Assembly: GCF_038051995.1 (NCBI RefSeq)
Contig: NZ_CP150290.1
Span: 6,424,501-6,488,500, forward strand
Direction: 5' to 3'
From: Paenibacillus sp. FSL H8-0537
GTDB lineage: Bacteria > Bacillota > Bacilli > Paenibacillales > Paenibacillaceae
Length of the DNA: 64,000 bases
Position 1 is the stretch's first letter. Each line of letters opens with the position of its first letter. The translations under genes were made by a program, and so were the position numbers. The notes under the pieces are model-generated. The model ran no database searches and was not told where the DNA came from. It saw only the letters and a list, made by a program, of their open reading frames with translations. Shown piece by piece: positions 2,466 through 24,664 of this stretch.

Positions 2466-3767
2466 TCAATTATAAAAACTATATATCAGCATATTCTTCT
2501 CTTCATTAAATCCTTTGCCAAGCAATTGTTTCTTTATTTCGGCCGAAGCGTACGATGCGATTATAATAAAATCTGAATGCTCAAGCACATCTGGTTTAAA
2601 AATAGTAATCCCTTGGATAGCTAATCCCCATTTGTTTGGGTCATTATCTATAAATCCTATTGGAGTAATATTTTGTTCCATTAATAGATTCAGAACGTTC
2701 TCACCGTATTTCCCGCTACCGAATATATAAATGCTACTAGTTCCCAAGTTTTTAATTTGTTCTATTTGAAGTCGTATTTCGGCATCCACTGCTTGTTTTC
2801 TTAATCTCTCTTCGGGTATTCCAAAATACTCCCCAATATATTTAACAAATTCCTCTCCGACTGGAATAGATTCAAAATCACCTTTTCCACTTGATATATC
2901 TTCAAATAAGTGCGCTATAGCATATTTTTTCTCAGACGGGCAATGCCAGACTGTCAGTTCCAAATCATTATAGGATACATCTCGTCTTACAGCCGAAAGA
3001 GTCCACATTCTCCTTATAAAAGGAGCTGCTTCGCTTCCTTCGTAACCCAGCTTATAATACAAGAAACTAAGCATATGGGCTTCTTCATTAAACTTTAGCA
3101 GACCTTGATTGAAGCGATTTAAGCTCTCCGACCAAGCTTGATCGACCTCTTCATTTAATTTGCTAATATAACTTACAGTAGCTCCAAACCACTCTCCACC
3201 CGCATAGGACGGCGGTTCTGGAATAGTCCTTTGAAGCAACGCCTCATAGATCTCTTTCATTTCATTTCGTGATAACCCATGAATATCCTCTGTCTCTGTG
3301 AACGGCATATTATAGGCCATAATTTGCTTTTCTGCGATTACATTCATTATGGTGTCTGCTTTGCGTACCCATACGCAATCAGAATCCAAGATAACAAAAC
3401 AATCCTCTGGATTATAATTTGAACCTATGTATTTTAAGATGTCAAAAATGTAAAACTGGTTTCGCCAGCTTGAGAAATACCCTTCAGGGGTTTGATAGGT
3501 TAATGGCAAATGTACAACATCAACCTTTAATTTGGCGAGCTCCTCTTTAATAGAAAAACCATTAACATCCGGAATATCTACACTATTCGTAAATAAAACA
3601 TGATTCATTTCTGGATTATTCTTAACACTAGAACAAAAATAAACATACACACAGCGCCAGTAAACCTCTTGAAAGGATTTATCGGCTGAGTTGTTTCCCA
3701 CTTGTGTGTAGCTGCTTTCCTCATCTTTGGAATCTAAATAAATCCATGTACATATATATTGGCTCAA
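2466..3767 (-). CDS. GT-A-like glycosyltransferase with C-terminal Rossmann-like module
   Basis: This 433-residue protein starts with TTG, placed 7-8 nt after GGGGGA. Residues about 1-330 look like a nucleotide-sugar transferase of GT-A type: a FVILDSDCVWV strand supplies the DxD-like metal site, and a later GGEWFGA segment fits an acceptor loop. I cannot assign it to a named family. Residues about 343-433 form a separate module starting IYIFGSGKYGENVL and GFIDNDPNKWG, also found in three other proteins of this run. It is the last gene of the operon, 14 nt after a GT2 gene. The likely role is adding a sugar in assembly of the glycan encoded here; donor and acceptor are unknown. Confidence 0.6.
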   Translation of the reverse strand: MSQYICTWIYLDSKDEESSYTQVGNNSADKSFQEVYWRCVYVYFCSSVKNNPEMNHVLFTNSVDIPDVNGFSIKEELAKLKVDVVHLPLTYQTPEGYFSSWRNQFYIFDILKYIGSNYNPEDCFVILDSDCVWVRKADTIMNVIAEKQIMAYNMPFTETEDIHGLSRNEMKEIYEALLQRTIPEPPSYAGGEWFGATVSYISKLNEEVDQAWSESLNRFNQGLLKFNEEAHMLSFLYYKLGYEGSEAAPFIRRMWTLSAVRRDVSYNDLELTVWHCPSEKKYAIAHLFEDISSGKGDFESIPVGEEFVKYIGEYFGIPEERLRKQAVDAEIRLQIEQIKNLGTSSIYIFGSGKYGENVLNLLMEQNITPIGFIDNDPNKWGLAIQGITIFKPDVLEHSDFIIIASYASAEIKKQLLGKGFNEEKNMLIYSFYN

Positions 3768-3781
3768 CTGGATTCCCCCGA

Positions 3782-4948
3782 TTATGCTTCGTTACTAGAC
3801 TGTATAAGTCGGAAATAACTATTAAATACGGCATCCTCATCCGATAAAAAATGAATCATTTTTAAAGAGCTGATCTCTCCCTGCTTCAATGCCTCTATGT
3901 TCTTATCTATTAATAAATAGTAAGGCTGCTTTTGTTTGGCTGAGGCAGCGAGCTGCAAGGCATAAGGAATATCACCTTTATATTGAGCAGTAATCATTGC
4001 ATAATTGTGTATGGTATGAAAGCGTTCAGGATCAGTGAGATAGGCTCGCTCCAAATAGTTATAGGCTGATTCAATATTATTTTGCATATGTTTCAGAAGG
4101 CCTAAATAAAAAAATGTCTCCGTGTTACCGCCCGCTTCCTCGGACCGGACCAACCAATGTTGCGCTTGAGTAAAGTTCTTATCAAAATAATAATTCTTTA
4201 TCGCAAAAGTAGTATAAATATCACTAGGCGCCTGTCCTTTTGCTAGCCACACATTTTCTAAGTTATTCATGTCATATCGACTCTGAATCCGAACTACATC
4301 TTGAATCATTCTCATCGATTGCCCTGAGGTATTGTTCGAATGAATTCTATATTGGGTTAACGTTTGATCGATATAAGCAAAACGATATCCGCGCTCGGCA
4401 AATTGCAAACTGATGTCATAGTCTGAACAAATAACTTCCCTGTTTAATCGCAACCATGGTTCATTACGAAAAGAAAGGCCGGTTCCGGTGAAAAAACCTC
4501 TTCGAAACAATTGCATAAAGAAATTATTTGAATCTAAATATTCAGGGAGCCTGAGTGGATGTTTAAAGCTTTCGCCTCTTGCATTAATGAGCTCCATTTG
4601 GGAATATACCATACCAATACGCTCTTCCCCAAAAGCCCTTGCAGTCAGTTCTACACGCTGTGGGAGTGCCACATCATCGGCGTCTAGAAAACAAATAATG
4701 TCACCAGTTACAAGTGGAAATGCTGTACGATAAGCAGCAGTAATTCCCTCATTTTGAGGTTTGTAAATCACTTTCATCTTATCGTTATTTTTCTCGTACC
4801 TTCTTAATAGCTCAGTCGAATCATCACTGCTTCCATCATCGACAAAAATACATTCCATATCCGCATATGTCTGATTCAATAAACTTTGTATACATTCCTC
4901 CAAATATTTATCGTTATTGTATACAGGAGTAATTGTACTAATGCGCAT
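3782..4948 (-). CDS. family 2 glycosyltransferase with TPR-like C-terminal half
   Basis: The 388-residue protein opens with the canonical GT2 start ISTITPVYNNDKYLEECIQS, then FVDDGSSDDS and CFLDADD, which bind the nucleotide sugar and metal. The C-terminal half (about 230-388) reads as tetratricopeptide-like helical pairs, e.g. TFFYLGLLKHMQNNIESAYN. Such repeats are common in GT2 enzymes that act on proteins or in complexes. RBS GGAGGAG precedes ATG. It lies between the GT-A-like gene and the WbsX-like gene. The fold is confident and the sugar is unknown; the TPR half may bind a protein such as flagellin or another enzyme of the run. Confidence 0.82.
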   Translation of the reverse strand: MRISTITPVYNNDKYLEECIQSLLNQTYADMECIFVDDGSSDDSTELLRRYEKNNDKMKVIYKPQNEGITAAYRTAFPLVTGDIICFLDADDVALPQRVELTARAFGEERIGMVYSQMELINARGESFKHPLRLPEYLDSNNFFMQLFRRGFFTGTGLSFRNEPWLRLNREVICSDYDISLQFAERGYRFAYIDQTLTQYRIHSNNTSGQSMRMIQDVVRIQSRYDMNNLENVWLAKGQAPSDIYTTFAIKNYYFDKNFTQAQHWLVRSEEAGGNTETFFYLGLLKHMQNNIESAYNYLERAYLTDPERFHTIHNYAMITAQYKGDIPYALQLAASAKQKQPYYLLIDKNIEALKQGEISSLKMIHFLSDEDAVFNSYFRLIQSSNEA

Positions 4949-4981
4949 AAAAGAATCTCCTCCGCCGCTGCAGCAGGTATT

Positions 4982-6988
4982 TTAATTATCGTGCAGATTA
5001 ATAGATAAATGATTAATAATCAATACATACTGGAAGCCTGTTTTGTACTTTCTATATTCTCGCTCAACTCTATATACGTTAGATTTACTCTGAGTAAAGT
5101 AAGCATGTAGAACATTGGAGGCGTTTTGATCTTTTGCTAAAATAATCAGGTTAGAAGCGCATGCGGTAAGCTGTTCTAGAATAGACAACACTGCTATTTC
5201 ATCCATATTTGAGCGCTGAAGTGAAACCAGGGCATAGTCATAGCCATTATCATCGTGCATTTTGTTTAAGCTGCTTTGCATGCTAGCCGTTGTATTCGTG
5301 AATATTAGCTCTAAAAACGGGATGTTATCTTGGATGGCATTAAGATTCAAAATTTGAACATGCTTGTGGCTAACCCAATTAGACAAAGGTATTCCTGCTG
5401 CGCCCAATTCCTCACCCAGAATCTCAATCAACATTCTCTCTTCTGGTAAAGCCCCACACTTCTGGCAGCGTTGAATGGTATCCATTGAAAACTTACCGAA
5501 CCCACAAATATTGCAAAAGCAATCGTTTTCAAACATAATAAAAGGCTGGCCTTTAGCAGAGTATCTTCTAATGGTTGATTGATTGATATTTATGGCGTAA
5601 TCCTTATTTCTCAACAAGCCAATTGCCATTAAATCATTTTCTATTTCTTCATGGAACATAGACGCAATACAAACGAAAGGTTCCACATTTTGCTGTGCAA
5701 CGCTTAAAGTAGATTTTGAATGAACCGTAACACCATTAATTAATGTACCGACTTTAGAAGCGTTATTATCAATAAACCCTTCTACCTTAATACTCGATGC
5801 ACTTAGCAGCTCCAGTGTCTTTAACCCTGCTGCCCCGGTTCCCCAGATATAAATCGGTCTTAAAACATTTACAGACAAATTAACGCTGTGCTTAAGGGAC
5901 TCGGTAGACTCAGCTTCCTCCCCCATCTCAAGCCTATCTGGCGCACTACCATCACGGGCTTCTTTTGTTGCTTCCAGAAATAAATGGCCATTTTTAAGAT
6001 CCGGCTCCAAATGGCAGCCTTCTCCCCACTCATTCCAAGCATTAATAAATACAATTTGTTCCTCTAGTGCATATTCGTTTACACGCTCTATACTTTGTTG
6101 AAGCCAATGCTTATATAAGCTGGCATCATTATTTTGGATAATCGTTGCATTATTGCTTCTACGTGCTGTATTATCCCAGCTTGGAAATACACATGGAAAA
6201 GCAGGCAGCTTCGTTTCTGCTTCTTTCTGCAAGGCCTTTTCCACCATATCTTGATAGCTATAAACAGTTAAGCCTGGGATTGTGGAAACCGAGAGGTGTT
6301 CATTAGCCGTATCTCTGAAATCAGGAGTGAAGTCATACATCGAGTCAAAACCAGCCTGAATCATATCATCCACCGTTAAACTGGCTTTGGAGTTGTTGGC
6401 ACAGCATAAATATATATCATCAAATCCATATTTCTTAATCTCATTCCGCCAAGCTGCAACCACTTCTTGCAAATTGGTTATTTCATTCGCACGATAGACT
6501 AGGAACAGCGGCTTATTGTCGATTTTGATGTAACGTGGATCTTGAAAAGCCTCCGCCAGCCACTTTATATGCTCCTCAGGGCTATATTCTTCATACTCCT
6601 GCTTTAACAGCAGCTGTTGATCCATTCCATCCCAACGTCTTGACCAGTTCTCGTTCGCCCAACAGAGACAAAAATCCAGATTAGGCTTGCCCGATTGAAG
6701 CACTTCATTAAAGGGACGCTCTAAAATCATTTTTCCATTGAACCAATAATGATAATAGCAAAATGCATCTATGCCATAGCTCGCTGCTAGTTCGCCCTGC
6801 GCTTCTCTTGTTTCCGGCAGCCTTAAATCATAGAATCCTAAATCAGAAGGAATATGGGGCTGATAGTGGCCATTAAACGATGGCCTGGCTTTTGACACAT
6901 TCGTCCATTCTGTAAAACCATTGCCCCACCATTCATTATTTTCTTTAACAGGATGATATTGAGGTAGATAAAAAGCAATGATTTTCAT
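4982..6988 (-). CDS. WbsX-family glycosyltransferase with Rossmann-like module and Zn-ribbon tail
   Basis: This 668-residue protein has three parts. Residues 1 to about 345 match the WbsX family (Glyco_tran_WbsX), with AFYLPQYHPVKENNEWWG, GFTEW, YYHYWFNG, WANENW and INAWNEWGEG, typical of O-antigen and rhamnan-type cell-surface glycan clusters. Residues about 378-475 are the shared module (IYIWGTGAAGLKT, GFIDNN). Residues about 490-668 begin with a CNICGFGKF / RCQKCGALPEER zinc ribbon, as in a group of SAM methyltransferases, but the rest shows no clear SAM motif I. That tail may be a degenerate methyltransferase. RBS GGAGG precedes ATG. The gene is the longest of the run, 43 nt after its upstream neighbour. 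Confidence 0.72.
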   Translation of the reverse strand: MKIIAFYLPQYHPVKENNEWWGNGFTEWTNVSKARPSFNGHYQPHIPSDLGFYDLRLPETREAQGELAASYGIDAFCYYHYWFNGKMILERPFNEVLQSGKPNLDFCLCWANENWSRRWDGMDQQLLLKQEYEEYSPEEHIKWLAEAFQDPRYIKIDNKPLFLVYRANEITNLQEVVAAWRNEIKKYGFDDIYLCCANNSKASLTVDDMIQAGFDSMYDFTPDFRDTANEHLSVSTIPGLTVYSYQDMVEKALQKEAETKLPAFPCVFPSWDNTARRSNNATIIQNNDASLYKHWLQQSIERVNEYALEEQIVFINAWNEWGEGCHLEPDLKNGHLFLEATKEARDGSAPDRLEMGEEAESTESLKHSVNLSVNVLRPIYIWGTGAAGLKTLELLSASSIKVEGFIDNNASKVGTLINGVTVHSKSTLSVAQQNVEPFVCIASMFHEEIENDLMAIGLLRNKDYAININQSTIRRYSAKGQPFIMFENDCFCNICGFGKFSMDTIQRCQKCGALPEERMLIEILGEELGAAGIPLSNWVSHKHVQILNLNAIQDNIPFLELIFTNTTASMQSSLNKMHDDNGYDYALVSLQRSNMDEIAVLSILEQLTACASNLIILAKDQNASNVLHAYFTQSKSNVYRVEREYRKYKTGFQYVLIINHLSINLHDN

Positions 6989-7031: not shown

Positions 7032-8159
7032 CTAATTAATTATCCCGAAACAGTAATGAATATGCTGCTTCAAGCCCGCTTCATCCAGCTGTTTTTTGAT
7101 CTCCTTAAAATAAGAGGAACCGATAACAATATAGTCACTCTCTAGTGAGACCTGTTCAAGGGAGGATATAGGAAGCTCCTGCATAACCGTTCCCCACTTT
7201 TTCTCGTTGTTATCAAGGAAACCGCTGACCTTATATCCTAAATCATTTAAAACAGCCATCGTTTTGATTCCGGCCGTTCCTGTGCCCCAAATATATATAT
7301 TTTTCTCGGAAGAGTACTGCTGCATGGCTAGCTCCAAGTAACCCTTTTGTATCAAACCTGAATCCGAGGTAGCAGGTTGAACATTACGCCATTGTGAATC
7401 GAGCTTAGTATCCTCTAAGGAAGCATTGTCCTTAATTAGATATTGACCAAGATAATTAGAGGACTTCACGTAAGCAACAAACGATCTTTCCATCTGAGCA
7501 TACTGCCCGTATTCATCAACACTAATCCCCACTCTTGAAAGCAAGTCATTATAGTCGATTTCCATATAATCTCTAATTCGTACAACTAACTGCTGAATCG
7601 CCCGATAGAGAACATATTTCACGGGGATGTGGAAGTCAAAAACCCATTCATAATCAATAACTTGATATTGTCCATTAATCAAAAATAAATTTTCAAAGGT
7701 TAAATCAATATTCCCGACCGGAAAAACAGTACCGCTGATCGTATCACATTCTGTTCCAAAAACCTGCTTAAATTCATCTGATACGGGAGCTTTATCCACC
7801 TGTAGAACATTTAATGAGTTGAGGAAGCTTACGTATTGGTCCAAAACAGCATAAAATTCTTCAAACTTTTTATTCCGTATGTAATCTAATATCATTTCAT
7901 TTAATGTTTTTTCGGATATATATTCATAAAAAACAGCATTATTTTCTAATGTGACGGGTACCAGCTTCATCGTTTTAATAGTAGAGAAGTGAAGCTGCAG
8001 GAGCTCATAATTTTCCTGAATGCGCTGCACATGCCGAGTGGCTTTATCATTTAATGCCCGCTTGCGTACCGTTAACTGATCGAAGCGGTATCCTATTGCA
8101 GTCTCGGTCTGAAACTGCTCATTACGTTGTCTATTATATCTCGCATATTTAATGTCCAT
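7032..8159 (-). CDS. kinase-like protein with C-terminal Rossmann-like module
   Basis: The first 280 or so of 375 residues resemble a small-molecule or lipopolysaccharide kinase fold. GNIDLTFENLFL stands where kinases have HxDLxxxNxL, and VIDYEWVFDF stands for the metal-binding DFG/DxE segment. The usual catalytic His-x-Asp is altered to Asn-Ile-Asp. Residues about 287-375 are the shared module (IYIWGTGTAGIKT, GFLDNNEKKWGT). It follows a SAM methyltransferase gene by 16 nt. A methyltransferase plus kinase pair is reminiscent of WbdD, which caps O-antigen chains, but the resemblance is architectural and unproven. The kinase-like call is tentative; the module is clear. Confidence 0.45.
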   Translation of the reverse strand: MDIKYARYNRQRNEQFQTETAIGYRFDQLTVRKRALNDKATRHVQRIQENYELLQLHFSTIKTMKLVPVTLENNAVFYEYISEKTLNEMILDYIRNKKFEEFYAVLDQYVSFLNSLNVLQVDKAPVSDEFKQVFGTECDTISGTVFPVGNIDLTFENLFLINGQYQVIDYEWVFDFHIPVKYVLYRAIQQLVVRIRDYMEIDYNDLLSRVGISVDEYGQYAQMERSFVAYVKSSNYLGQYLIKDNASLEDTKLDSQWRNVQPATSDSGLIQKGYLELAMQQYSSEKNIYIWGTGTAGIKTMAVLNDLGYKVSGFLDNNEKKWGTVMQELPISSLEQVSLESDYIVIGSSYFKEIKKQLDEAGLKQHIHYCFGIIN

Positions 8160-8175: not shown

Positions 8176-9081
8176 TTAGAATTGACATTTTATTAGAAAT
8201 GAGTTTGAAAAAAAGTCGAACATGTCATTATCAACAATGGAATCCATAGCTAGTTTTTCATTGAAAAGCGAAATTCTCTTTCTATCATAATTAGGAGTGA
8301 CAGAATTGTACTCTCCCGCCTTCGGTAAAAATTCGTCGCTAAAAACCTCATCTGGCATTTTGTAATCCGGGACCGGATAATAGAAATCCAATTGTTTAAA
8401 CCCACATTGTCCAAGTAATTCTTTCAACTCTTTTTTAGAAAAGGTTCTAACGGAGTGATTGGTAGAATGGTAGTTTTCAATGCTATCAAAATAGATGCCG
8501 GAATGATCTTCTGCCGCTCCAGACCAATATTTAAGCCCAAACTTATTCTCAATGGCAATAAGCAGCACGCCATCTTCCTTTAAAAAGGTTTTAACTTTAT
8601 TTAAAAACTTTTCGAAAGGGTTCTCCATACCACTTAAGCCGGCATATTCAAGAACTCCAATAAGCGTTACATAATCGAACTTTTGTTCCATTTCCACATC
8701 GAACAAATCGCCTACAACAATATCAATATTCTCACGTTTCTTATGACGATTTGCTAGTATTTCAGCTCTGCGCATGGATAATTCCAATGCCGTCACCTGC
8801 GACAACTTTTCACTGAACAAGCCTGTTATTGCTCCGCAGCCTGCTCCGATTTCAAGAAGCGTTCCATTCTCAGAAAAGTTATACCACTCCAGAAGGTTTC
8901 TTCTAATGGGAGAGAAATGATACAATATCGGCCAACGATTATCTTTTTGCAATAGAAGATCAATATCCTCATCGTTTCTGACTATATTCAGAATCTCATC
9001 CTCAATACTTCCATCCGAGTAGGTATCTGAACCTTTGTAAAATGTATCATCAATATGAATATGGCCTATTTTTTTAGACAT
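8176..9081 (-). CDS. class I SAM-dependent methyltransferase
   Basis: This 301-residue protein has motif I as LLEIGAGCGAITGLF, the acidic residue after strand 2 (VTALELS), and motif IV-like FDYVTLIGVLEYAG. The family moves a methyl group from S-adenosylmethionine. The C-terminal half includes NKFGLKYWSGA, NYHSTNHSVRTF and YYPVPDYKMP. The gene sits just upstream of the kinase-like gene with a 16-nt gap, so they are probably translated together. The target may be a sugar hydroxyl or the phosphonate of the glycan. The fold is certain; the substrate is unknown. Confidence 0.75.
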   Translation of the reverse strand: MSKKIGHIHIDDTFYKGSDTYSDGSIEDEILNIVRNDEDIDLLLQKDNRWPILYHFSPIRRNLLEWYNFSENGTLLEIGAGCGAITGLFSEKLSQVTALELSMRRAEILANRHKKRENIDIVVGDLFDVEMEQKFDYVTLIGVLEYAGLSGMENPFEKFLNKVKTFLKEDGVLLIAIENKFGLKYWSGAAEDHSGIYFDSIENYHSTNHSVRTFSKKELKELLGQCGFKQLDFYYPVPDYKMPDEVFSDEFLPKAGEYNSVTPNYDRKRISLFNEKLAMDSIVDNDMFDFFSNSFLIKCQF

Positions 9082-9129: not shown

Positions 9130-10575
9130 TCATAAACTCATTAACCATCTGGAACTATTATGAAAATCCTCTTCCTCTACAAAGCCTAACTTTGCAAGCT
9201 GTCTAATTACATCATGAGAAAACGACGTTCCGATAAAGATAAACGGTTTGCTGGCATTGTTTTTTTCTAGAGCATCAGGGGCTTCTATACGTATACCTTC
9301 TTTAAAGGTCCCCCATGCTTGTTCGTTTGCATCTACAAATAAATCAGTCTTAATTTGACACTTTTCTAGAAATACAACTGTCTTGGAACCTAAACCCCCG
9401 GCTCCCCAAACAACAATCTTACGTCCTGCAGTACTCTGTATAAGGGACTCCAATTTTTCCATATAAATCTGTTCCCTAACCTGTCTTACATCTTCATTGT
9501 TAATAGCTAAAAGCGCCTGCAATGCTTGTTGATCTAGAGCACCTTCTACTTCAGGCTGAGGCGCAGGAATATTACAATCAACAAAAGAATCTACTAGCTG
9601 CATAATTTGATAAGCACTTGTACCAATATGCTCAAAATTATTCTCTTTATGCTGCTTTGCTTTTAACTTTTCTTCCGTTAAATGATTAAGCAGCTTCTCG
9701 ATTGTTTCAGTTAGCTTTACCTTTTCCGTTTTTATAACATGATCATAAGGAATGTCGGCAAATCTTGAAGGAACCGTGTCTGGTATTAGCCAGTCACTTA
9801 CAGCAACACCACAGGCATCAAATAGTAAGGCTTCAAACAATACACTAGACTCATCAGAAACAATAATATCTGTAAATGCTAAAAAATGCATGATGTTGAT
9901 TTCGCTGTCGGCAACATATACGTTATCGGCATAATTCTCATGCAAAGCATTCATTTCTTTTATATTTTCGATGATATGGGGATAACGCTCAACCCATCCT
10001 GTACCTGCTTTCCACGGTCCCTGTTTCAAAACCAAATTGACAGGCAGCTTCTCGAGCGCTTTTACAAACTCATGCTGTTTTCCATCATTTTCCCAAGAAG
10101 GAGCATACAACACTGTAATTGGATGCTTGAGGTTCATACTTTGCTTCAATTCTGCTACTTCTTTTTTGAAACTATCTGTGGTAATAATATCAGCCTTAGG
10201 CCAACCAAGCTTATATACACCGTTCACTGGCATAGAAATAGGATCCCAAGAGCTATCGACCCATCTTTTGACCCAACCATCGCCTGGTAAAATTCCCACA
10301 TCAAACTTATTCCAAGGCTCACCGTTCCAAATATTAGGCCACCTATTATGTCCTTGTCCCATATCATGCAGCATAATCATAGAAAAGTCTGCATTCTCCG
10401 GATAGCAACGATGCTGGCAATAAACACCGATATGGGCCTTTTCATGGATATCTGCTGATATTGTGACCTTATATCCTCTCGCTTCCGCTTCAGCCGCGAC
10501 AGGTTTGATTTGTTGCAACTCACCACCGTCTGTATAAAAAAAGGTGATATCCTTATGTAGCTCTAGCTCTCTCAT
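9130..10575 (-). CDS. CDP-glycerol glycerophosphotransferase-like protein with C-terminal Rossmann-like module
   Basis: In this 481-residue protein, residues 1 to about 345 have a GT-B fold resembling TagB/TagF. MLHDMGQGHNRWPNIW in the N-terminal half, LYAPSWEND in the middle and DIIVSDESSVLFEALLFD in the nucleotide-binding half match the family's 'APTWR' and 'D.SS..fe' signatures. Relatives transfer glycerol- or ribitol-phosphate from a CDP donor. Since this run makes AEP and encodes nucleotidyltransferases, a CMP-phosphonate donor is plausible here, which is inference. Residues about 386-481 are a diverged copy of the shared module (VVWGAGGLGSKTVV, FVDANEQAWGT). The gene lies 10 nt downstream of the AEP transaminase gene. 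Confidence 0.65.
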   Translation of the reverse strand: MRELELHKDITFFYTDGGELQQIKPVAAEAEARGYKVTISADIHEKAHIGVYCQHRCYPENADFSMIMLHDMGQGHNRWPNIWNGEPWNKFDVGILPGDGWVKRWVDSSWDPISMPVNGVYKLGWPKADIITTDSFKKEVAELKQSMNLKHPITVLYAPSWENDGKQHEFVKALEKLPVNLVLKQGPWKAGTGWVERYPHIIENIKEMNALHENYADNVYVADSEINIMHFLAFTDIIVSDESSVLFEALLFDACGVAVSDWLIPDTVPSRFADIPYDHVIKTEKVKLTETIEKLLNHLTEEKLKAKQHKENNFEHIGTSAYQIMQLVDSFVDCNIPAPQPEVEGALDQQALQALLAINNEDVRQVREQIYMEKLESLIQSTAGRKIVVWGAGGLGSKTVVFLEKCQIKTDLFVDANEQAWGTFKEGIRIEAPDALEKNNASKPFIFIGTSFSHDVIRQLAKLGFVEEEDFHNSSRWLMSL

Positions 10576-11695: not shown

Positions 11696-11703
11696 GATTC
11701 CAC

Positions 11704-12393
11704 CTACTCTTTTACGATGTAGCAAGGGCGGGCAGCGAAAGGAAACTGTTTGATCGTCACATCTTTATCCTTAAAGAAGTCATCTACCCCTCTAGTATCT
11801 CCATGATAACTTAATCCGCTTGTACCCTCACCGCCATAGTTGTCCAATAAAATTACTCCGCCCTTCATAACTCTGTCATACATATGCTCCAGAACACAGT
11901 AAGTAGGTTCTACAAAGTCAATATCAATATTAAGCAAGGAGATTTTTAAGCCGCCATTTTTTTGGATATAATCAGGGACAGTATCAAGCACATTCCCCGC
12001 AATAAGCTCATAATTTTTAATACCCTTTTCATTAAATATTTGAGACAGCTGATCTGTAGAAATCGAGCTTGCTCCTGCTGTATTAATCCAGTGCTCTCTT
12101 TGTGCCTGGTCTTCTTCATACGAGGTATTCGGAAACTCATCACTAAACACATCGAATGCAATAAGCTTGGAGGAAAATGAATTGCCTAGCAATTCTCTCA
12201 TCATAGCGAATCTTGTAAATGATGTTCCTTTGAATACACCGCATTCCACGATAGCCCCTGGAACATCTTGAACCATTTTATAGGCTTCATAATGCACCAG
12301 AAATTTAGCAAGCCGATCTGGCTGCAAAGTTAAATGAAAATAAGTCTCGTAATCATACATGGATTGTTCATCAAATTTAGGTAAGGTTATCAT
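11704..12393 (-). CDS. TylF/MycF-family O-methyltransferase
   Basis: This 229-residue protein has GAIVECGVFKGTSF (SAM motif I of the TylF family), FDVFSDEFP, LLNIDIDFVEPTY and GGVILLDNYGGEG, matching the macrocin O-methyltransferase family (PF05711). The DIDF and LLDNY segments carry the Mg-binding aspartates. Members methylate hydroxyls on deoxysugars in antibiotics and surface glycans. The gene sits between the stand-alone nucleotidyltransferase and AEP transaminase, so it probably methylates a sugar of the phosphonate glycan. RBS GAGGA precedes ATG. The family call is confident. Confidence 0.82.
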   Translation of the reverse strand: MITLPKFDEQSMYDYETYFHLTLQPDRLAKFLVHYEAYKMVQDVPGAIVECGVFKGTSFTRFAMMRELLGNSFSSKLIAFDVFSDEFPNTSYEEDQAQREHWINTAGASSISTDQLSQIFNEKGIKNYELIAGNVLDTVPDYIQKNGGLKISLLNIDIDFVEPTYCVLEHMYDRVMKGGVILLDNYGGEGTSGLSYHGDTRGVDDFFKDKDVTIKQFPFAARPCYIVKE

Positions 12394-14771: not shown

Positions 14772-14773
14772 AA

Positions 14774-17550: not shown

Positions 17551-18540
17551 CTATAGTAATTTTTCGTTTATTATCCAGTTCCGTAATGTTTCCTTATCAA
17601 TACTTCCTTCCTGCGGAATTTTCATATCAATAACTTGATGATTTGTTTTAGGTGTACTTATAAAAGAAGCAGGAATAATATACATTTCCTCTGTTTCTAC
17701 TGCGATTCGCTGTTCATCCAGAGTCATTAATTCCTCATACATTTTTTCTCCTGGACGTAAACCTATTGTATGTATTTCAATCTCATTATCTGATTTCTTT
17801 ATGTGATTCAGCAGGTCTATCATAACTTCTGCTAAATCCCCTAATTTGACTACCGGCATTTTCAAAACTAATACTTCACCGCCGCTTGCGAGCTCATTGG
17901 CACGAAGAAGCAGCTCAATGGCCTGCGTTGGCGTCATCATATACCTAAGCATTTCAGGATCTGTTACAGTAATCCTTCCTTGCTCTACTATTTGCTTCTT
18001 GAATAATGGAATTACAGAGCCGCGGGAGCCCATGACATTACCGAAGCGTACAGAAGAGAAGATTGTTGATTTCGCCCCTTTTTGATACTCTGCCGCAGAT
18101 ACTAGTCTTTCTCCCATTAATTTTGTTGCCCCATATGTATTGGTTGGAGAAATTGCTTTGTCTGAGCTCGTAAAAAGAACCTTTTGAACTCCGGCCTGAA
18201 TGGATGCTTGAATGACGTTTTGTGTTCCAATGACATTCGTCTGAACAGCCTCAAACGGATTGTATTCACAAAAGGGCACATGCTTCATTGCCGCCAAATG
18301 GAAAACAAAATCAACATCTTCAAGCGCTCTGAGCAGCCTCTGCTGATCACGTACATCCCCAATTAAATATCGCATTTTCTCATGATGCTCATGGAAGTCT
18401 TGGCTCATTTGATACTGTTTATATTCATCTCTGCTAAATATACGAATTACGCTTGGATCATAAGTAAGCAGTTGCTTCGTTAATTGATAGCCAATCGTCC
18501 CCGTTCCACCTGTGATAAGAATTTTCTTGTTTTTGTACAT
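17551..18540 (-). CDS. pseB: UDP-N-acetylglucosamine 4,6-dehydratase, PseB/CapD-like
   Basis: This 329-residue extended SDR has the NAD motif GGTGTIG (11-17), HLAAMKHVPFCEYNP, FTSSDKAISPTNTYGATKL with the catalytic Tyr/Lys, SVRFGNVMGSRGSV and GLRPGEKMYEEL. These are hallmarks of PseB/FlaA1-type inverting dehydratases, which turn UDP-GlcNAc into a 4-keto-6-deoxy sugar as the first step to pseudaminic acid or related sugars. The length fits PseB. It is the first gene of the glycan run, 42 nt before PEP mutase. A sigma-D-like promoter lies about 70 nt upstream, pointing to co-expression with flagellin. Later Pse enzymes are not in the window. Confidence 0.82.
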   Translation of the reverse strand: MYKNKKILITGGTGTIGYQLTKQLLTYDPSVIRIFSRDEYKQYQMSQDFHEHHEKMRYLIGDVRDQQRLLRALEDVDFVFHLAAMKHVPFCEYNPFEAVQTNVIGTQNVIQASIQAGVQKVLFTSSDKAISPTNTYGATKLMGERLVSAAEYQKGAKSTIFSSVRFGNVMGSRGSVIPLFKKQIVEQGRITVTDPEMLRYMMTPTQAIELLLRANELASGGEVLVLKMPVVKLGDLAEVMIDLLNHIKKSDNEIEIHTIGLRPGEKMYEELMTLDEQRIAVETEEMYIIPASFISTPKTNHQVIDMKIPQEGSIDKETLRNWIINEKLL

Positions 18541-18640: not shown

Positions 18641-18642
18641 AG

Positions 18643-18740: not shown

Positions 18741-21002
18741 CTATTCTCTATTCTTCATGTTATTCAATTTTTCAATTGTTTTTCCAGTCACTTCACGTAA
18801 AACAGGAACCTTCTCTATAAGTGCAACAATCAAGGGATACATGATTTCTTTTGCCAAGTCCGATTTTTTCACTATATTCGTTTCTTTAACCAGTTCGGGC
18901 AAGTCACGTTCAAATCTATTAATTTGATTTCGCAAAAGCATATAACAAAAGGCACTAAAAGGAGCACTTGCAACTACCTTGCCCCAATCACTATCTATAT
19001 CGTCTATAGCTTTTATACTTTTCGCAGGATTATTCCGGCTCAATTCAACCGATACTTTAATATTTTTTTCAATTCTTTTTAGCTGCTGTTCAAACTCACT
19101 GATTTGTTTAGGAAGCTGCAGCAGAGACTTGCTAATACGCTGTATACGAACTAAGTCATAGCCCTTTAACTTTTGCAGCTCCTGATTCATAAAGTCATCC
19201 GCTACAAACTTTTCTAAAGACCGCTTTAGCACTTGCTCCATAGGTTCAAATAAAGCACTGCGAATACGTGCTCCTTTTCGAGATGTGTTAACAAATTTTA
19301 CATTAGGATGATTTTCCAATAACTCACAAATATCTTCTAAAACTAACTTCATTATATTGTTCGTCCGATTTAATGTACCTTGTACATTCTCAACCATTAA
19401 ATCTGCTTTTGCAATGGTTTTTTCCATATGCTGCTCCGAAACATGCTGCGAGCCTGGGGCATACATATTTTCTGTGGGAAATGATAGATCCTGCCCAGTA
19501 AATATAATCTCTTTACAGCCCATATACACTGCTGCCTGTATGGCAGTCCCTGTAACAGAATGATTGGATAAAAAGATTGCATCTTTATCTGAAAGCTGAA
19601 AGAAAAACTTAGTTATAAAATCGTTTTCAAAATGAACGTGGAATAGATTATCTTTTTTATAATCCAAAATTTTATATTTAATCAAAGGGGTATATAAAAG
19701 CGGTATTCCTGTTACATCTGTATTTCTAAACACATTAAAATTTGATTCAGCGCCATCCATACTTACAATCAGGTGTGGCCTTATATTATAATGCATTAAC
19801 GATTGTACTGCTGATCCGGCTGCAATAATAATGGTATGTTTTTTAAGCTGACGTAAATATTCAATATCTTCAGCGAGCGATGGCCCTGCACCAACAATTA
19901 CCGCAGTTTTATCGGTAAATTTATTTTTCATCTCTGCAAGTGAAGGCGAATATATAGTTTGCGGCAAATTATACATGCTGTTTTCAAACCATTCTAATCC
20001 ATGTTTTTCATACATCATATACGAGCTGCCAAAGTTTAAAATCGCTAATTTAGCCTCATTACTAAATGCTAAAACATCGTTGTTACTTAATTTATTATAA
20101 ACAGGGAGTACAATAATTTCTGCATCCCCCTTCATATATTTCATAAATCTATACATCATTTTTGCCCGATCATTTATATTTCCGCTAACTGATAAATGCT
20201 TAACATTAGGCAAATCCAATAGCTGTTTTAAGTCCATATTATACATGGCCGAAAGTAAAATTTGCTCATCTGGCTCATATATGTATATATTATGATTTGG
20301 ATATTGCTTAGCATAAGCAAGCGCATGATACCCGTATCCCATACCAAAAAAAATAATTTCATTCTTTTGTTCTACTTTTAAAGCAATATGTTTCAACCAG
20401 TTTTCCATTTCATATTCAGGACTATATTTGCTATATAAATAAATGGCCTTTCCATCTTCTGCTTTAACAAATAAATTAGGCTGGCCATTTCTAGCATTCA
20501 TAAACTCGTAGTTATCTTGATCTCTATGTAACACATTCATTTTACGGAATATATCCGGATACTTTTTGCCTAAAAATCGCAGATTAGCTGCTAATAGCTG
20601 TTCTTGATTTATTCTGCTGCCTTCCTGTCCTAATTCCAATGAAAGCTGATTAAACAATGGAATCAATTCGAAACGGAGACAGTCATTAGCTTCAATATAA
20701 TTTTCTTGATCCATATGAGCGTTCATTTCTTGAAATTTCATACTAAGGTCTCTGGCTGTTCTTTCACATACCTCGTGCAATGCTTGAAAACCCTGCTTGC
20801 TTTCCAGTACGTCTTGGATACTAGATAATGCGCGATATAAGTCATCCATCCCCTCGATTATTTCGGAAAACAACCCCCAAAAGTGCCCAGTTATTGGCTC
20901 AACCAATCGTTCTTGAACAGACTCGGAGGCAGCAATCAGCTTAGGCAAAAACAGGCTGATGTCCTCAATCGTATCTTCAACTTCCCACTGCTGTTCCCCC
21001 AT
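18741..21002 (-). CDS. motility accessory factor (Maf, DUF115) flagellin glycosyltransferase
   Basis: The 753-residue protein contains the DUF115 core at about 365-560: KTAVIVGAGPSLAEDIEYL, IIAAGSAVQSL, PHLIVSMDGAES and IFTGQDLSFP, plus a preceding domain with IIFFGMGYGYHALAY and NHNIYIYEPD. Maf proteins attach nonulosonic acids or related sugars to flagellin in the cytoplasm before export (Campylobacter, Aeromonas, Clostridium, Geobacillus). The N-terminal 150 residues are helical. It lies between the fliD-fliS-fliT operon and the glycan run, with its own terminators on both sides and RBS GAGGAG. The placement makes it the obvious candidate for joining the glycan to flagellin. The family call is strong. 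Confidence 0.88.
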   Translation of the reverse strand: MGEQQWEVEDTIEDISLFLPKLIAASESVQERLVEPITGHFWGLFSEIIEGMDDLYRALSSIQDVLESKQGFQALHEVCERTARDLSMKFQEMNAHMDQENYIEANDCLRFELIPLFNQLSLELGQEGSRINQEQLLAANLRFLGKKYPDIFRKMNVLHRDQDNYEFMNARNGQPNLFVKAEDGKAIYLYSKYSPEYEMENWLKHIALKVEQKNEIIFFGMGYGYHALAYAKQYPNHNIYIYEPDEQILLSAMYNMDLKQLLDLPNVKHLSVSGNINDRAKMMYRFMKYMKGDAEIIVLPVYNKLSNNDVLAFSNEAKLAILNFGSSYMMYEKHGLEWFENSMYNLPQTIYSPSLAEMKNKFTDKTAVIVGAGPSLAEDIEYLRQLKKHTIIIAAGSAVQSLMHYNIRPHLIVSMDGAESNFNVFRNTDVTGIPLLYTPLIKYKILDYKKDNLFHVHFENDFITKFFFQLSDKDAIFLSNHSVTGTAIQAAVYMGCKEIIFTGQDLSFPTENMYAPGSQHVSEQHMEKTIAKADLMVENVQGTLNRTNNIMKLVLEDICELLENHPNVKFVNTSRKGARIRSALFEPMEQVLKRSLEKFVADDFMNQELQKLKGYDLVRIQRISKSLLQLPKQISEFEQQLKRIEKNIKVSVELSRNNPAKSIKAIDDIDSDWGKVVASAPFSAFCYMLLRNQINRFERDLPELVKETNIVKKSDLAKEIMYPLIVALIEKVPVLREVTGKTIEKLNNMKNRE

Positions 21003-21118: not shown

Positions 21119-21442
21119 TCATTCCCTTAAATCAACAAAATAACTTTCTGCATTATATGCTTGTTCATACTTTTGTTTTTGCATGCGATGCAGCTTAATT
21201 TTATTCAAACTTGTAGCGGCTTCATCCTTTAACTCCTGCATACGTTTTAGGATCGTATCGTCATACTCGCCAATCAAACGAATTACCGCCTTCATCTCTT
21301 CTGAAACCTGGGTCTGCTGAAGTTTATTAACGATTTCTGTTCTAAAATCAGCTAATTCGACTAATTCTTCATAGCTTGCCTCCTGAATATGCTCAGCTAT
21401 ATACAGAGTCTGATCATATAGAGACTGCAAGGATGATATCAT
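21119..21442 (-). CDS. fliT: FliT-like flagellar chaperone
   Basis: This 107-residue, all-helical protein starts ISSLQSLYDQTLYIAEHIQ and has a middle ELADFRTEIVNKLQQ segment followed by a charged coiled-coil tail. Size, helix content and position directly after fliS (4-nt ATGA overlap) match FliT, the export chaperone for the cap protein FliD. Sequence identity in this family is low, so the call rests mostly on gene order. It is last in the flaG-fliD-fliS-fliT operon. Confidence 0.65.
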   Translation of the reverse strand: MISSLQSLYDQTLYIAEHIQEASYEELVELADFRTEIVNKLQQTQVSEEMKAVIRLIGEYDDTILKRMQELKDEAATSLNKIKLHRMQKQKYEQAYNAESYFVDLRE

Positions 21443-21834
21443 CGAGGAGCTCCTGTTGGTGCATCATTTGCAGCAGCTAGCATCGCTTGCTTCCATGTAT
21501 CACGAAATTCCTGCAAATACCCCAGCGCTTCCTTAGCTGCGGCTATATTTTTCTTCATATTGGCTTCTATCAAAAGATGCAGCATATATTCATAAATACG
21601 TGAAAGCTCTTTGGAAATTTCAAAACTAGTATCCAATGAGGCTGTCAGTTCATGTATAATTGCCTGTGCCTTTTTCAAGTTTTTGTTAGTAGCCTCGTAA
21701 TTTTTCTTTTCCAAGCCGTCAATTGCCGCTTTTGTAAAGCGGATGGCTCCTTCATACAGCATAATAATTAGCTGACCAGGTGTCGCTGTCTGAACAGAGG
21801 ACTGCTGATAAATTTGATACGGCGAGTTTAACAA
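21439..21834 (-). CDS. fliS: flagellin export chaperone FliS
   Basis: This 131-residue protein begins NSPYQIYQQSSVQTATPGQL, the classic FliS start, followed by IIMLYEGAIRFTKAA, both flagellin-contacting segments. FliS is a four-helix bundle that binds the C-terminal D0 helix of flagellin to stop early polymerisation and, in Bacillus, also works with FliW and CsrA to tune flagellin synthesis. It lies between fliD (14 nt upstream) and the fliT-like gene (overlapping). The length is normal. Confidence 0.93.
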   Translation of the reverse strand: MLNSPYQIYQQSSVQTATPGQLIIMLYEGAIRFTKAAIDGLEKKNYEATNKNLKKAQAIIHELTASLDTSFEISKELSRIYEYMLHLLIEANMKKNIAAAKEALGYLQEFRDTWKQAMLAAANDAPTGAPR

Positions 21835-21848
21835 TCCGGTTCACTCCT

Positions 21849-23330
21849 TTAGCTAGTAAAACTCATTAAAGCGGATGACTGTGTATTAAAGCTGCTAATT
21901 GCTTTTTCCATTGCACTGAATTGCTTAAAATATTGCGTTTCGATACTATTAAGTCTGGAAAGCATGCGGCTTTCCTGATCCTTCATAGTACGAAGCTGTG
22001 CGCTAATGAGTGAGCTCTCCAGAAAAGCTGCACTCGTGTCTGAGCTAACTGTCGAAGTTCCCGCTTTTGTAGAAATGCTTTTCAGTGCGGTCATCGAGGA
22101 TGCACTCATCTTGGCAAATACGCCAGATGTTGAGCTGCCCGGCGAAGTATCCGTACTCTTAGCTGTAAAGAGGTTGATTACCTTATCTGGGCTAGCCTCT
22201 AATGCCGTTCTCAATTTACTTTCATCAAGTACAAGCTTCCCCTTCTCGGTATAGGTGCCTGTTGTGATACCAATTGTTAATTTATTTCCGTTACCGTCTA
22301 CTATTCCAGCTACTAATGAAGTCGCCGCAATACGGAGATCGGAAAGCATCGTGCTGAGTGTACCATCGTTACGCAATGTGCCACTGCGCGCTTTTTCTTC
22401 CCACTGTTTAATTTCATCATCAGTCATTTCTTTTTTCTCTTCAGCAGTCAGTGGTTTGTAGGTACGATTGACAGCTTCAGAAAGCTCTGAGTTAACCGAA
22501 GCAATTAAGCTGTTATATTCAGTCACAAACGATTTTATGGTATCAATAATTTTAGCTGTATCCTGTACAGCAGAAATCGTTGTAGGAACAGAAGTTGCTG
22601 ACTGTGCTTTAACGGTAAAGTCGAAGCCGTTGACTGCAAAACGATTACTAGCTTGCTTATAGCTGATGCCATTAATCTTCACTTCTGCATCCGTACCAGC
22701 TTGCCCTCCTGTCGGAGTACGAGAGGTAAACACATTGTCCTGAAGCGACAATTGATTTTCACCAGTCTGAGTGGCCGATATGGAGAACTGTCCCGAATTG
22801 GCATCGTATAATGCTGTCGCTTTCAGCGTACCTGCGTTTGTGCTAATAGCTGCTGCAAGATCACTTAGCTTTGCATCCTTGCTCACTTTAATCGTTTGAT
22901 TATTAATATTAACGTTAACCGTGCTTGAGCCCGCGCCCGATAAAGCAAATCCTAAATCTTCCAAGGTCTTGCCTTTATCTGCAGCAGAAAACGTATACAC
23001 ACTGTTTCCAGTTGTAGCCACCTTGTCTACTGTTACATTTAAAGAACCATTTGCGGTAGATGCTGTTGCATTGATAGTCAACGTGTTCGTATCACCGCTG
23101 ACCTGCGATGTTTTCGCACTGATAGCTGAGGACATATTAAAGGAAGAAAGCTTATTGTTCCGGAAATCAACAATTTTACTACTCATTGACCGGTAATCTT
23201 CTTGCTGCCACTCCAGCTTCGTGCGTTTTTTGATCATGTTATCGTAACTTGTCCGGCGAGCCTTCATCATTTCCTTGACTAAATTATCAACGTCCATGCC
23301 AGAAGCTAAGCCTGTAATTCTGTTTGCCAT
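21849..23330 (-). CDS. fliD: flagellar filament capping protein FliD (HAP2)
   Basis: This 493-residue protein starts ANRITGLASGMDVDNLVKEM, the conserved FliD N terminus, and ends with a heptad-rich C terminus (QESRMLSRLNSIETQYFKQF). The middle holds the hook-associated repeats (NINNQTIKVSKDAKLSDLAA) and the FliD C-terminal domain (TIKSFVTEYNSLI). FliD forms the pentameric cap under which flagellin polymerises. The length is normal. It lies between flaG and fliS, in the standard Bacillus order. Confidence 0.95.
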   Translation of the reverse strand: MANRITGLASGMDVDNLVKEMMKARRTSYDNMIKKRTKLEWQQEDYRSMSSKIVDFRNNKLSSFNMSSAISAKTSQVSGDTNTLTINATASTANGSLNVTVDKVATTGNSVYTFSAADKGKTLEDLGFALSGAGSSTVNVNINNQTIKVSKDAKLSDLAAAISTNAGTLKATALYDANSGQFSISATQTGENQLSLQDNVFTSRTPTGGQAGTDAEVKINGISYKQASNRFAVNGFDFTVKAQSATSVPTTISAVQDTAKIIDTIKSFVTEYNSLIASVNSELSEAVNRTYKPLTAEEKKEMTDDEIKQWEEKARSGTLRNDGTLSTMLSDLRIAATSLVAGIVDGNGNKLTIGITTGTYTEKGKLVLDESKLRTALEASPDKVINLFTAKSTDTSPGSSTSGVFAKMSASSMTALKSISTKAGTSTVSSDTSAAFLESSLISAQLRTMKDQESRMLSRLNSIETQYFKQFSAMEKAISSFNTQSSALMSFTS

Positions 23331-23346
23331 GAATATTCCCCTCCTT

Positions 23347-23736
23347 CTAAATCTTCTCGTCGATTAAAATCCCATTGATAATACCATTTTGCTCCATCAG
23401 CTTGGCTGCCATATCCAGCAATTTCTCTTCGGGGATCTCACGTATAACTTCTCCCGTTTCCTTATTGCGAATTTTATAAATAATATGATTTGTTTCTTCA
23501 TGTACGGAGCGGTCCACAGTTGTCTCTGGCCCACTAATCGATTCTATAACCCGATCAACACTCTTCGTAAGCTGCTGATCATCACCCTGAATAGAAGCCA
23601 CTTGTGAAAATCCGTCGATTGTAGTGCCAGGACCAGATATTGCACCAATGGCTCCTGTAATCGGTTTTATTGGAGCGGCTCCTGCCGCCTTATCTGATGT
23701 ATAGCCCGCTGTGGTATTTACAGATGAAATATTCAT
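23347..23736 (-). CDS. flaG: flagellar protein FlaG (YvyC)
   Basis: About 129 residues. The C-terminal part (about 75-129) holds the FlaG signature IIYKIRNKETGEVIREIP and LLDMAAKLMEQNGIINGILI. The N-terminal half is a variable, Gly/Pro-rich linker. FlaG is linked to filament length and sits before fliD in most polar and peritrichous systems. ATG 23736 is chosen, 9 nt after AGGTGG; ATGs at 23742 and 23754 are also in frame. It is first in the flaG-fliD-fliS-fliT operon. Confidence 0.85.
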   Translation of the reverse strand: MNISSVNTTAGYTSDKAAGAAPIKPITGAIGAISGPGTTIDGFSQVASIQGDDQQLTKSVDRVIESISGPETTVDRSVHEETNHIIYKIRNKETGEVIREIPEEKLLDMAAKLMEQNGIINGILIDEKI

Positions 23737-23777
23737 CTTCATTCCCCACCTCAAATGAAATTGGTTATCTATATTTA

Positions 23778-23804: not shown

Positions 23805-23849
23805 AGCCTTAGACCGTTATTTCAATCCTATTTATTCATTTAATTATAG

Positions 23850-23880
23850 AAAAAGAGGCCCTAGATAATCTAAGGCCTCT
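23850..23880 (-). terminator. intrinsic terminator of the flagellin gene
   Basis: Stem AGAGGCC/GGCCTCT (23854-23860 with 23874-23880), extended by CTTAGA/TCTAGG-type partial pairing, followed on the minus strand by TTTTTCTATAATT. It begins 16 nt after the hag stop, as expected for a highly expressed single-gene transcript. Confidence 0.88.
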
Positions 23881-23896
23881 CCGCTCAGAGCAACGA

Positions 23897-24664
23897 TTAT
23901 TGCAGCAAGGACAGAACGCCTTGTGGTTGCGAGTTTGCTTGAGCAAGCATCGATTGGGAAGCTTGAAGAAGAATGTTGTTCTTCGTAAGCTTAACCATTT
24001 CACTAGCCATGTCTGTATCACGAATACGGGATTCGGAAGCAGTCAGGTTCTCAACAGTTGTACCCAGGTTGTTGGAAGTGTACTCCAAACGGTTTTGAAC
24101 AGCACCAAGCTTAGCGCGCTCAGTCGAAACGGATTTGATAGCTGTTTCGATAGTAGAAAGAGCACTGCTGCTGTTAAGAGCATTAAAATCAGTAGTAGTA
24201 ATGCTACCGATTTTAATCGTTTGTGCATTATCATCCGATTGAATTGTAGCACCGCTTGTAATTGCCATGCCGTTGAATTTAGTATCAGTCATGATGCTCT
24301 TGATTTGCGAACCCAACTCGTTCAACTCAACGTCAATGTTAGCTTTGTCGCCGGAGCTGTAAGTATCGTTCAGCTTTTGTACGTTCAATTCTTTCATACG
24401 AGTCAGCATGGAGCTAACTTCGTTCATTGCGCCCTCAGCTGTTTGTACGAAGGATACGCCGTCTTGAACGTTCTTTTGAGCTTGCTCAAGACCACGGATT
24501 TGACCACGCATTTTTTCGGATACTGCCAGACCAGCAGCATCGTCAGCCGCACGGTTGATACGAAGACCTGAAGAAAGTTTCTCCATGTTCTTACCTGCTG
24601 CAGCGTTGTTCAAAGTCATGTTACGGTGAGTGTTCAAAGCTGTGATGTTGTGATTAATACGCAT
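23897..24664 (-). CDS. hag: flagellin
   Basis: This 255-residue filament subunit starts MRINHNITALNTHRNM and ends with the D0 helix KNNILLQASQSMLAQANSQP. D1 motifs KLSSGLRINRAADDAAGLA and NVQDGVSFVQTAEGAM are intact. The variable middle is short (about 140-190, ITSGATIQSDDNAQT and following), so any surface glycosylation would fall on Ser/Thr in this small segment, which holds TSGAT, TITTTD and NSSSALST. ATG 24664 is chosen (GGGAGG 8 nt upstream); an in-frame extension upstream is not supported. It has its own sigma-D promoter, a leader with CsrA sites, and a strong terminator. Confidence 0.96.
   Translation of the reverse strand: MRINHNITALNTHRNMTLNNAAAGKNMEKLSSGLRINRAADDAAGLAVSEKMRGQIRGLEQAQKNVQDGVSFVQTAEGAMNEVSSMLTRMKELNVQKLNDTYSSGDKANIDVELNELGSQIKSIMTDTKFNGMAITSGATIQSDDNAQTIKIGSITTTDFNALNSSSALSTIETAIKSVSTERAKLGAVQNRLEYTSNNLGTTVENLTASESRIRDTDMASEMVKLTKNNILLQASQSMLAQANSQPQGVLSLLQ

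Follow-up and report, generated by a model that had tools for sequence, protein, structure and literature searches.

The stretch of 64,000 nucleotides from Paenibacillus sp. FSL H8-0537 analysed here (the window; its genome is G000) possesses a block of phosphonate genes next to the flagellin gene hag and a gene for a Maf flagellin glycosyltransferase. As judged by sequence comparison, these phosphonate genes most likely belong to a flagellin glycosylation island, because the same linkage recurs in nine genomes, no exporter was found, and genes of the type producing cytidine monophosphate (CMP)-activated nonulosonates (NulO) lie nearby. The phosphonate itself has a good chance of ending up on flagellin, and its exact form, 1-hydroxy and/or N-methyl 2-aminoethylphosphonate (AEP), is proposed tentatively.

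A first-pass annotation of the window had suggested that the flagellin glycan carries AEP or a derivative through a C–P bond and that no phosphonate-modified flagellin had been described. The placement of the genes among those for flagellin glycosylation is upheld, while the mode of attachment and the novelty are not. AEP keeps its own C–P bond, so a P–O ester formed from a CMP-activated donor would be the most likely linkage, and 2-AEP on the N-acetylglucosamine (GlcNAc) of C. difficile FliC was already reported in 2022, by mass spectrometry (PMC8861647). Phosphonate moieties on flagellin glycans are also mentioned in a 2025 review (PMC12645811). As AEP on flagellin is already known, the new part is the comparative recurrence of islands with a phosphoenolpyruvate (PEP) mutase, PepM, beside flagellin; in the open-access literature, judged by titles and the openings of abstracts, no paper was identified that places pepM within a flagellin glycosylation island. 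Within the literature searched, no earlier genetic candidates emerged for a pathway encoded entirely in one locus that would start at PEP and end with a flagellin glycan capped by phosphonate, so these islands would be the first.

Core genes and their recurrence beside flagellin

The AEP biosynthesis set (pepM, ppd and the AEP transaminase gene) is complete in the window, and it is found together with the maf and hag genes at these positions:

15910..17508, minus strand: PepM with a fused LicC/PntC-like nucleotidyltransferase domain (TIGR02320, 1m1b, 1jyk)
14774..15913, minus strand: thiamine diphosphate (ThDP)-dependent phosphonopyruvate decarboxylase, Ppd (TIGR03297)
10586..11725, minus strand: AEP transaminase of the AepZ/PhnW type (TIGR03301)
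18741..21002, minus strand: Maf flagellin glycosyltransferase (PF01973 140.7 bits, PF20157 38.5 bits)
23897..24664, minus strand: hag flagellin, 255 amino acids from its likely ATG, proposed acceptor (PF00669 139.8 bits, PF00700 104.2 bits)

The three core enzymes recognized by the first-pass annotation all exceed their curated cut-offs: PepM, in which the EDKxxxxxNS motif is present, scores 395.7 bits with TIGR02320 (cut-off 319.55), Ppd 406.6 bits with TIGR03297 (cut-off 312.5) and the transaminase 388.6 bits with TIGR03301 (cut-off 360.8). The fusion of PepM to a nucleotidyltransferase domain goes beyond that annotation. In profile searches of the PDB, PepM matches the PEP mutase 1m1b (E 1e-134) and, through its C-terminal domain, LicC 1jyk (E 3e-14), this domain reaching 26.1 bits with PF12804, slightly below the cut-off of 27; the predicted product of the enzyme is phosphonopyruvate and possibly a CMP-phosphonate too. 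The host genome, a single contig of 7.0 Mb, contains a single match to PepM and two to MptE/Maf. With each frame taken from its first start codon, overlaps of 4 bases are seen at the junctions of PepM with Ppd and of Ppd with the methyltransferase MTn described below, as well as 25 bases between the TauD-type dioxygenase and the cytidylyltransferase and 22 bases between the TylF-type methyltransferase and the AEP transaminase. From the phosphonate genes, the distance is 1.2 kb to maf and 6 kb to hag, whose frame begins with GTG at 24700, the likely start being the ATG at 24664. The Maf protein matches the PDB entry 5mu5 (E 6e-6), deposited as an uncharacterized protein, which we take to be a Maf protein.

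Matches to the window PepM were taken at a threshold of E 1e-60 and counted as full-length when they covered more than 500 residues. The first-pass annotation had pointed to comparative genomics of pepM beside maf or hag, and the linkage does recur: a PepM–nucleotidyltransferase fusion lies within 20 kb of flagellin, a limit chosen after the places were seen, in eight further genomes, giving nine islands with the window. All eight others have the fusion, Ppd and flagellin, and seven of them a Maf homologue, which makes eight of nine in all, none being present in the 21.6-kb stretch of Bacillus ndiopicus. NeuB homologues occur in six of the eight other islands and in the window's own flank.

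Among 148 relatives, 22 genomes have a PepM match, and the match exceeds 500 residues only in the window's genome and in G134, where flagellin lies about 4 kb from pepM. A sample of 398 genomes of the class gave 37 PepM rows from 35 genomes; the five full-length rows (G000, G468, G200, G316 and G414) all have a flagellin-family gene at a distance of 5.6-17 kb, whereas none of the 32 remaining rows has flagellin within 30 kb, the nearest being at 37 kb. For one of these 32 (G093), the statement covers the 20 kb on each side of pepM, which hold no flagellar match, instead of a genome-wide search for flagellins. Compared with the other PepM rows from flagellin-bearing genomes, this corresponds to 5/5 versus 0/18 (Fisher p 3e-5), or 4/4 versus 0/18 (p 1.4e-4) when the window is left out, since it raised the question. 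On this contrast, chance linkage was set aside. The rows were split by the length of their match to the window PepM and not by domain architecture; the description of all 32 others as stand-alone PepM was rejected, as at least the PepM of G524, encoded 37 kb from flagellin, is fused to a C-terminal domain that has diverged. The remaining linked islands belong to three named genomes: Viridibacillus soli, Bacillus ndiopicus and Cohnella fermenti.

In a PepM tree built from 93 sequences (a further 15 of the 108 loci yielded no open frame that could be used), the nine flagellar copies need 4 changes, against 8.7 when labels are shuffled, and none of 500 shuffles was as low. By sequence, the flagellar copies appear grouped, which is compatible with a single origin, and independent recruitments are not claimed.

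Several observations weigh against a flagellar destination. The other 20 relatives with PepM show no flagellar match near pepM (0/20), within up to 20 kb on each side, some of these stretches being shortened by contig ends. Among the 13 named Bacillota genomes examined, 10 lack flagellin on the pepM contig to a distance of 30 kb, the contig breaking off 2-11 kb from pepM in five of them (G148, G154, G155, G156 and G160), and in a 398-genome sample of the phylum the other fused PepM matches are unlinked to flagellin in three of three cases, each with a contig end 1-9 kb from pepM (one of the three, G1040, agrees with G156 in its places and looks like the same case counted again). Moreover, 200 bp containing a strong hairpin (-25.7 kcal/mol) lie between maf and the gene block, so that maf may not be co-transcribed with the block. 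A linkage general to fused PepM was rejected on the 10/13 and 3/3 counts; because many fused pepM loci elsewhere are unlinked, the flagellin linkage characterizes a particular set of islands in Bacilli and not fused PepM generally.

The 20 relatives, the hairpin and the unlinked fusions would also fit a reading in which the phosphonate decorates another surface polymer (a capsule, a teichoic-type or a secondary wall polymer), the flagellar neighbourhood being incidental to a variable region, and cell-surface tailoring is said to use most of the bacterial phosphonate capacity (PMC6697681). Such a destination would call for membrane machinery, and in this respect the first-pass annotation was right in finding no Wzx, Wzy or ABC exporter in the run. 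By hydropathy, none of 30 open reading frames (ORFs) in positions 1-30000 of the window (non-overlapping, at least 100 amino acids) has two or more hydrophobic segments, none of 14 ORFs in the 13.5-kb left flank (L005) has three or more, and the island and flank proteins searched include no member of a flippase, polymerase or exporter family. Together with the nine flagellin-linked islands and the contrast in the class sample, this makes another polymer an unlikely destination compared with flagellin.

Tailoring, activation and transfer

The enzymes that could modify and transfer the phosphonate, including the three methyltransferases of the gene block, are encoded as follows:

14094..14777, minus strand: S-adenosylmethionine (SAM) methyltransferase MTn, proposed AEP N-methyltransferase (PF08241/PF13649)
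13162..14082, minus strand: TauD/2-oxoglutarate dioxygenase, proposed AEP 1-hydroxylase (PF02668 92.1 bits)
12419..13186, minus strand: LicC/PntC-like cytidylyltransferase, a proposed synthase of CMP-(hydroxy)AEP (PF12804 46.1 bits)
11704..12393, minus strand: TylF/macrocin-type O-methyltransferase, probably for sugar O-methylation (PF05711 58.4 bits)
9130..10575, minus strand: TagF-like cytidine diphosphate (CDP)-alcohol phosphotransferase, GlyP, with a Rossmann-like domain at its C terminus, proposed to transfer the phosphonyl group (PF04464)
8176..9081, minus strand: SAM methyltransferase (PF08241/PF08242/PF13489)

Regarding the dioxygenase, its PDB profile matches are 7n7v, a 'Predicted hydroxylase' (E 7e-13), FrbJ 5eqn (E 8e-12) and TmpA 6npb (E 1.5e-4). 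TmpA acts on phosphonates according to the name of its deposited structure, and FrbJ is also an enzyme acting on phosphonates. An alignment shows that the HxD motif and distal histidine of the window's protein are kept in two relatives from the order of Bacteriovorax. The cytidylyltransferase carries an AAGxGSR...PK motif, and its best PDB matches are LicC 1jyk (E 5e-12) and PntC-AEPT 6pd1 (E 5e-10). GlyP scores 31.7 bits with PF04464 (cut-off 22.1) and matches the TagF-like Cps3D 8qoy (E 9e-8) and TagF 3l7m (E 4e-5), with no transmembrane segment found. Its structure model has a pLDDT of 84.5 and TagF 3l7k as the top Foldseek match (E 3.7e-10), while VIA-align places UDP-GlcNAc 2-epimerases level with TagF or slightly above; the modelled fold would fit both alike, and the sequence family leans towards TagF.

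A close, adjacent pair of TauD protein and cytidylyltransferase was found, among 80 named pepM loci, only in two Bacteriovorax loci, with identities to the window of 46-47% for TauD and 44-46% for the cytidylyltransferase. In the 398 class genomes, no TauD relative above 32% identity was present other than the window's own. Meanwhile, in the order of one Bacteriovorax genome, the 129 genomes include 19 with a TauD match, and the best one directly adjoins a cytidylyltransferase homologue in all 19 (19 of 24 rows, as five second copies do not). Twelve of these loci, two being those that seeded the search, were fetched more widely and carry PepM in 12/12, Ppd in 11/12 and a transaminase in 9/12, with no flagellin match in the fetched stretches. 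We take Bdellovibrio stolpii to be the present Bacteriovorax stolpii. In that bacterium, hydroxy-AEP has been reported in a membrane lipid, a sphingophosphonolipid (PMC8154272). From the FrbJ/TmpA-like relatives, the Bacteriovorax pepM loci and this lipid, the pair likely performs hydroxylation followed by CMP activation, with the final transferase swapped according to the acceptor.

This kinship, with identities of 46% and 45% for the pair, and the reported hydroxy-AEP lipids raise the possibility that the phosphonate of the window also enters a phosphonolipid, as in Bacteriovorax/Bdellovibrio. In one Bacteriovorax-order locus tested (L229), however, a CDP-alcohol phosphatidyltransferase (PF01066) comes right after the pair, whereas this family is absent from the window's island proteins, where the nearest equivalent is the soluble TagF-like protein, so that a lipid destination is improbable. 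Even less probable is a small diffusible phosphonate, such as an antibiotic or a signal. FrbJ-like dioxygenases and nucleotidyltransferases occur in phosphonate antibiotic pathways too, and the window has such a dioxygenase, but no exporter, resistance gene or peptide ligase is among the families found, and the genes are interleaved with glycosyltransferase genes and have a flagellin setting in eight other genomes.

For flagellin as the acceptor, a route can be proposed from the enzyme families, their linkage and their recurrence, which are observed, while every substrate, each transfer step and the final structure are predicted. PepM and Ppd would lead to phosphonoacetaldehyde, which the transaminase would convert to AEP; AEP is probably tailored by MTn, through methylation of its amine, and by the TauD enzyme, through hydroxylation at C1. 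The cytidylyltransferase at 12419-13186 and/or the domain fused to PepM would then form the CMP-phosphonate. In the cytoplasm, Maf, together with a CMP-nonulosonate from the NeuB cluster on the left, would begin the glycan on flagellin, which the GT2 and WbsX proteins would lengthen, and the soluble GlyP would move the phosphonate onto a glycan hydroxyl as a phosphonate ester. The product may thus be a tailored AEP, 1-hydroxylated and/or N-methylated, rather than AEP itself.

At the level of families, this arrangement resembles the type A locus of C. difficile (CD0240-CD0244) and the b-type locus of P. aeruginosa (PA1088-1091), as described in PMC10714395 and PMC11833859, where the flagellin glycan is capped via a phosphorus-containing group and a LicC-like cytidylyltransferase, a TagF-like phosphotransferase and an N-methyltransferase share one locus. 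In the C. difficile model, these are CD0242, CD0244 and CD0243, respectively (PMC10714395). A CD0241-like phosphoserine phosphatase/phosphotransferase family was not found among the island proteins, with 2466-3767, most of 7032-8159 and L005:8879-10024 lacking an assignable family. The main group in C. difficile is a phospho-N-methylthreonine made without PepM, and 2-AEP itself is found on a minor share of the glycan (PMC8861647); unlike that species, the window's island encodes the phosphonate pathway itself, along with Maf/NulO-type genes. C. difficile was pepM-negative in a survey, and its AEP source is given as unknown (PMC8861647). The islands also provide candidates for the activating and transferring enzymes.

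The Pnt (PntC) type of phosphonyl tailoring likewise combines a PepM that carries a PF12804-type domain with a separately encoded LicC-like cytidylyltransferase; however, the described clusters use LicD-like transferases or glycosyltransferases and, in the accessible parts of that account, have no tie to flagella (PMC6697681), in contrast to the TagF-like transferase and flagellin genes of the window. The same source terms the later steps of phosphonate tailoring enigmatic. Maf/nonulosonate islands of Geobacillus and Clostridium share the maf gene by flagellar genes, variable glycan genes and NeuB-type genes, but phosphonates are not mentioned in the accessible text of two surveys of such islands (PMC5109656, PMC13317340). 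A PepM-dependent phosphonate on glycoproteins was proposed for marine microbes, although it concerns cell-surface layers and not flagellin (PMC8931226). Within the genus, clinical isolates of Paenibacillus thiaminolyticus have a 3-gene AEP operon (PMC9765702).

Two island types

The nine islands probably comprise an AEP type and a hydroxyethylphosphonate type. An AEP transaminase is present in four (G000, G134, G468 and Viridibacillus soli) and an iron-dependent alcohol dehydrogenase (Fe-ADH) in five (G200, G316, G414, Cohnella fermenti and Bacillus ndiopicus). The best NCBIfam match of the Fe-ADH is TIGR03405 (Phn_Fe-ADH) in all five, at 331-393 bits, under the cut-off of 423.7. In known phosphonate pathways, a dehydrogenase step gives hydroxyethylphosphonate, and by analogy the Fe-ADH islands would yield this compound. 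A full-length MTn homologue occurs in all four transaminase islands, the other three being 38-46% identical to that of the window, and no MTn match over half its length was found in the five Fe-ADH islands (stretches of about 21.6 kb for B. ndiopicus and longer for the others), G200 showing one 44-residue match that belongs to a general methyltransferase. The simplest reading is that MTn would be an N-methyltransferase occurring where an amine exists. If so, the phosphonates should differ between transaminase and dehydrogenase islands, with N-methylation only where there is an amine, and flagellin is an easily purified acceptor. A wider view, for which the chances seem evenly balanced, is that Bacilli have a family of dedicated flagellin phosphonates made wholly in-island, of (N-methyl)AEP and 2-hydroxyethylphosphonate types, the window being a third flavour with the Bacteriovorax-type module and 1-hydroxy-(N-methyl)-AEP.

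The islands also differ in their candidate transferases. A protein of the alkaline-phosphatase superfamily ('Sulfatase' family) adjoins pepM or lies within about 6 kb of it in every island except the window's (eight of nine), that of G200 being assigned solely by similarity to the one of G134:

L018:7940-9970
L016:16588-18627
L116:9772-11541
L185:3-1853
L191:2-1804
L188:15947-17803
L186:12195-14075
L012:7224-9284

These proteins lack hydrophobic segments and conserve D302, T341 and a DHG motif, and they are candidate new cytosolic phosphonyl transferases, in place of which the window has its TagF-like protein. In addition, the G134 island encodes a protein of 1022 amino acids (L116:4836-7904) with pyruvate, phosphate dikinase (PPDK)-type ATP, PEP-utilising mobile and peptidase C26/glutamine amidotransferase domains.

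Glycan genes and setting of the island

The remaining genes that the first-pass annotation had listed around the phosphonate set, from the glycosyltransferases to fliT-fliS-fliD-flaG-hag, are all present, fliT scoring 27.1 bits with PF05400, under the Pfam cut-off of 29.5:

378..2371, plus strand: AMP-binding acyl ligase (PF00501/PF13193) and short-chain dehydrogenase/reductase (SDR), convergent with the block
2466..3767, minus strand: unassigned protein, glycosyltransferase-like only by position and a shared C-terminal domain (no Pfam family)
3782..4948, minus strand: GT2 glycosyltransferase (PF00535 121.9 bits)
4982..6988, minus strand: WbsX-family glycosyltransferase (PF14307 449.8 bits)
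7032..8159, minus strand: protein ending in the shared Rossmann-like domain, its N-terminal part kinase-like by eye only (no Pfam family reaching its cut-off)
17551..18540, minus strand: UDP-N-acetylhexosamine 4,6-dehydratase, PseB/FnlA-like (PF02719 359.1 bits)
21119..23754, minus strand: fliT (weak), fliS, fliD and flaG (PF05400, PF02561, PF02465/PF07195, PF03646)

The dehydratase reaches 335.3 bits with the PseB model TIGR03589, under its cut-off of 407.75. The hairpin between its gene and maf is located at 18630-18700 and has 15 bp, with no clear T-run.

Another extension of the first-pass annotation is that the island seems to run left of the window, from a NeuB cluster to hag. The left flank L005 encodes a methyltransferase, a DegT aminotransferase, a dehydratase, a formyltransferase, a DUF4910 protein, NeuB, a CMP-NulO-synthetase-like protein (CTP_transf_3) and an unassigned protein of 381 amino acids, with secA beyond; the NeuB, CMP-NulO-synthetase-like, DegT, dehydratase and formyltransferase genes are 0.6-9 kb from the window. 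The genome has two NeuB-family matches, the strong one being this NeuB. The acyl ligase/SDR pair is placed between the NeuB cluster and the glycosyltransferase genes, and a GNAT acetyltransferase is encoded further left (L005:11066-11647); the three may possibly contribute an acyl decoration of the same glycan. Positions 2466-21100 have a GC content of 37.6%, against 44-48% in six other pieces of the genome, the NeuB cluster (46.4%) included, and this low value suggests that they are acquired DNA.

A C-terminal Rossmann-like domain of about 90 amino acids is common to four otherwise differing proteins (2466-3767, 4982-6988, 7032-8159 and 9130-10575), with identities of 28-37%; between 7032-8159 and GlyP it amounts to 30% over 89 amino acids. 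Similar C-terminal stretches are seen in other islands, on glycosyltransferases and some alkaline-phosphatase-superfamily proteins, and the domain is possibly a docking or sugar-nucleotide domain.

A second Maf-like protein (PF01973 102.7 bits) is encoded elsewhere in the genome (L004:9997-18999, at about 4733000-4742000 on contig C1 of G000). The gene immediately after it specifies a protein of 2386 or more amino acids with 19 Big_5 Ig-like stretches, and the 19-kb stretch examined there gave no flagellin-gene match; this Maf-like protein possibly glycosylates a non-flagellar surface protein.

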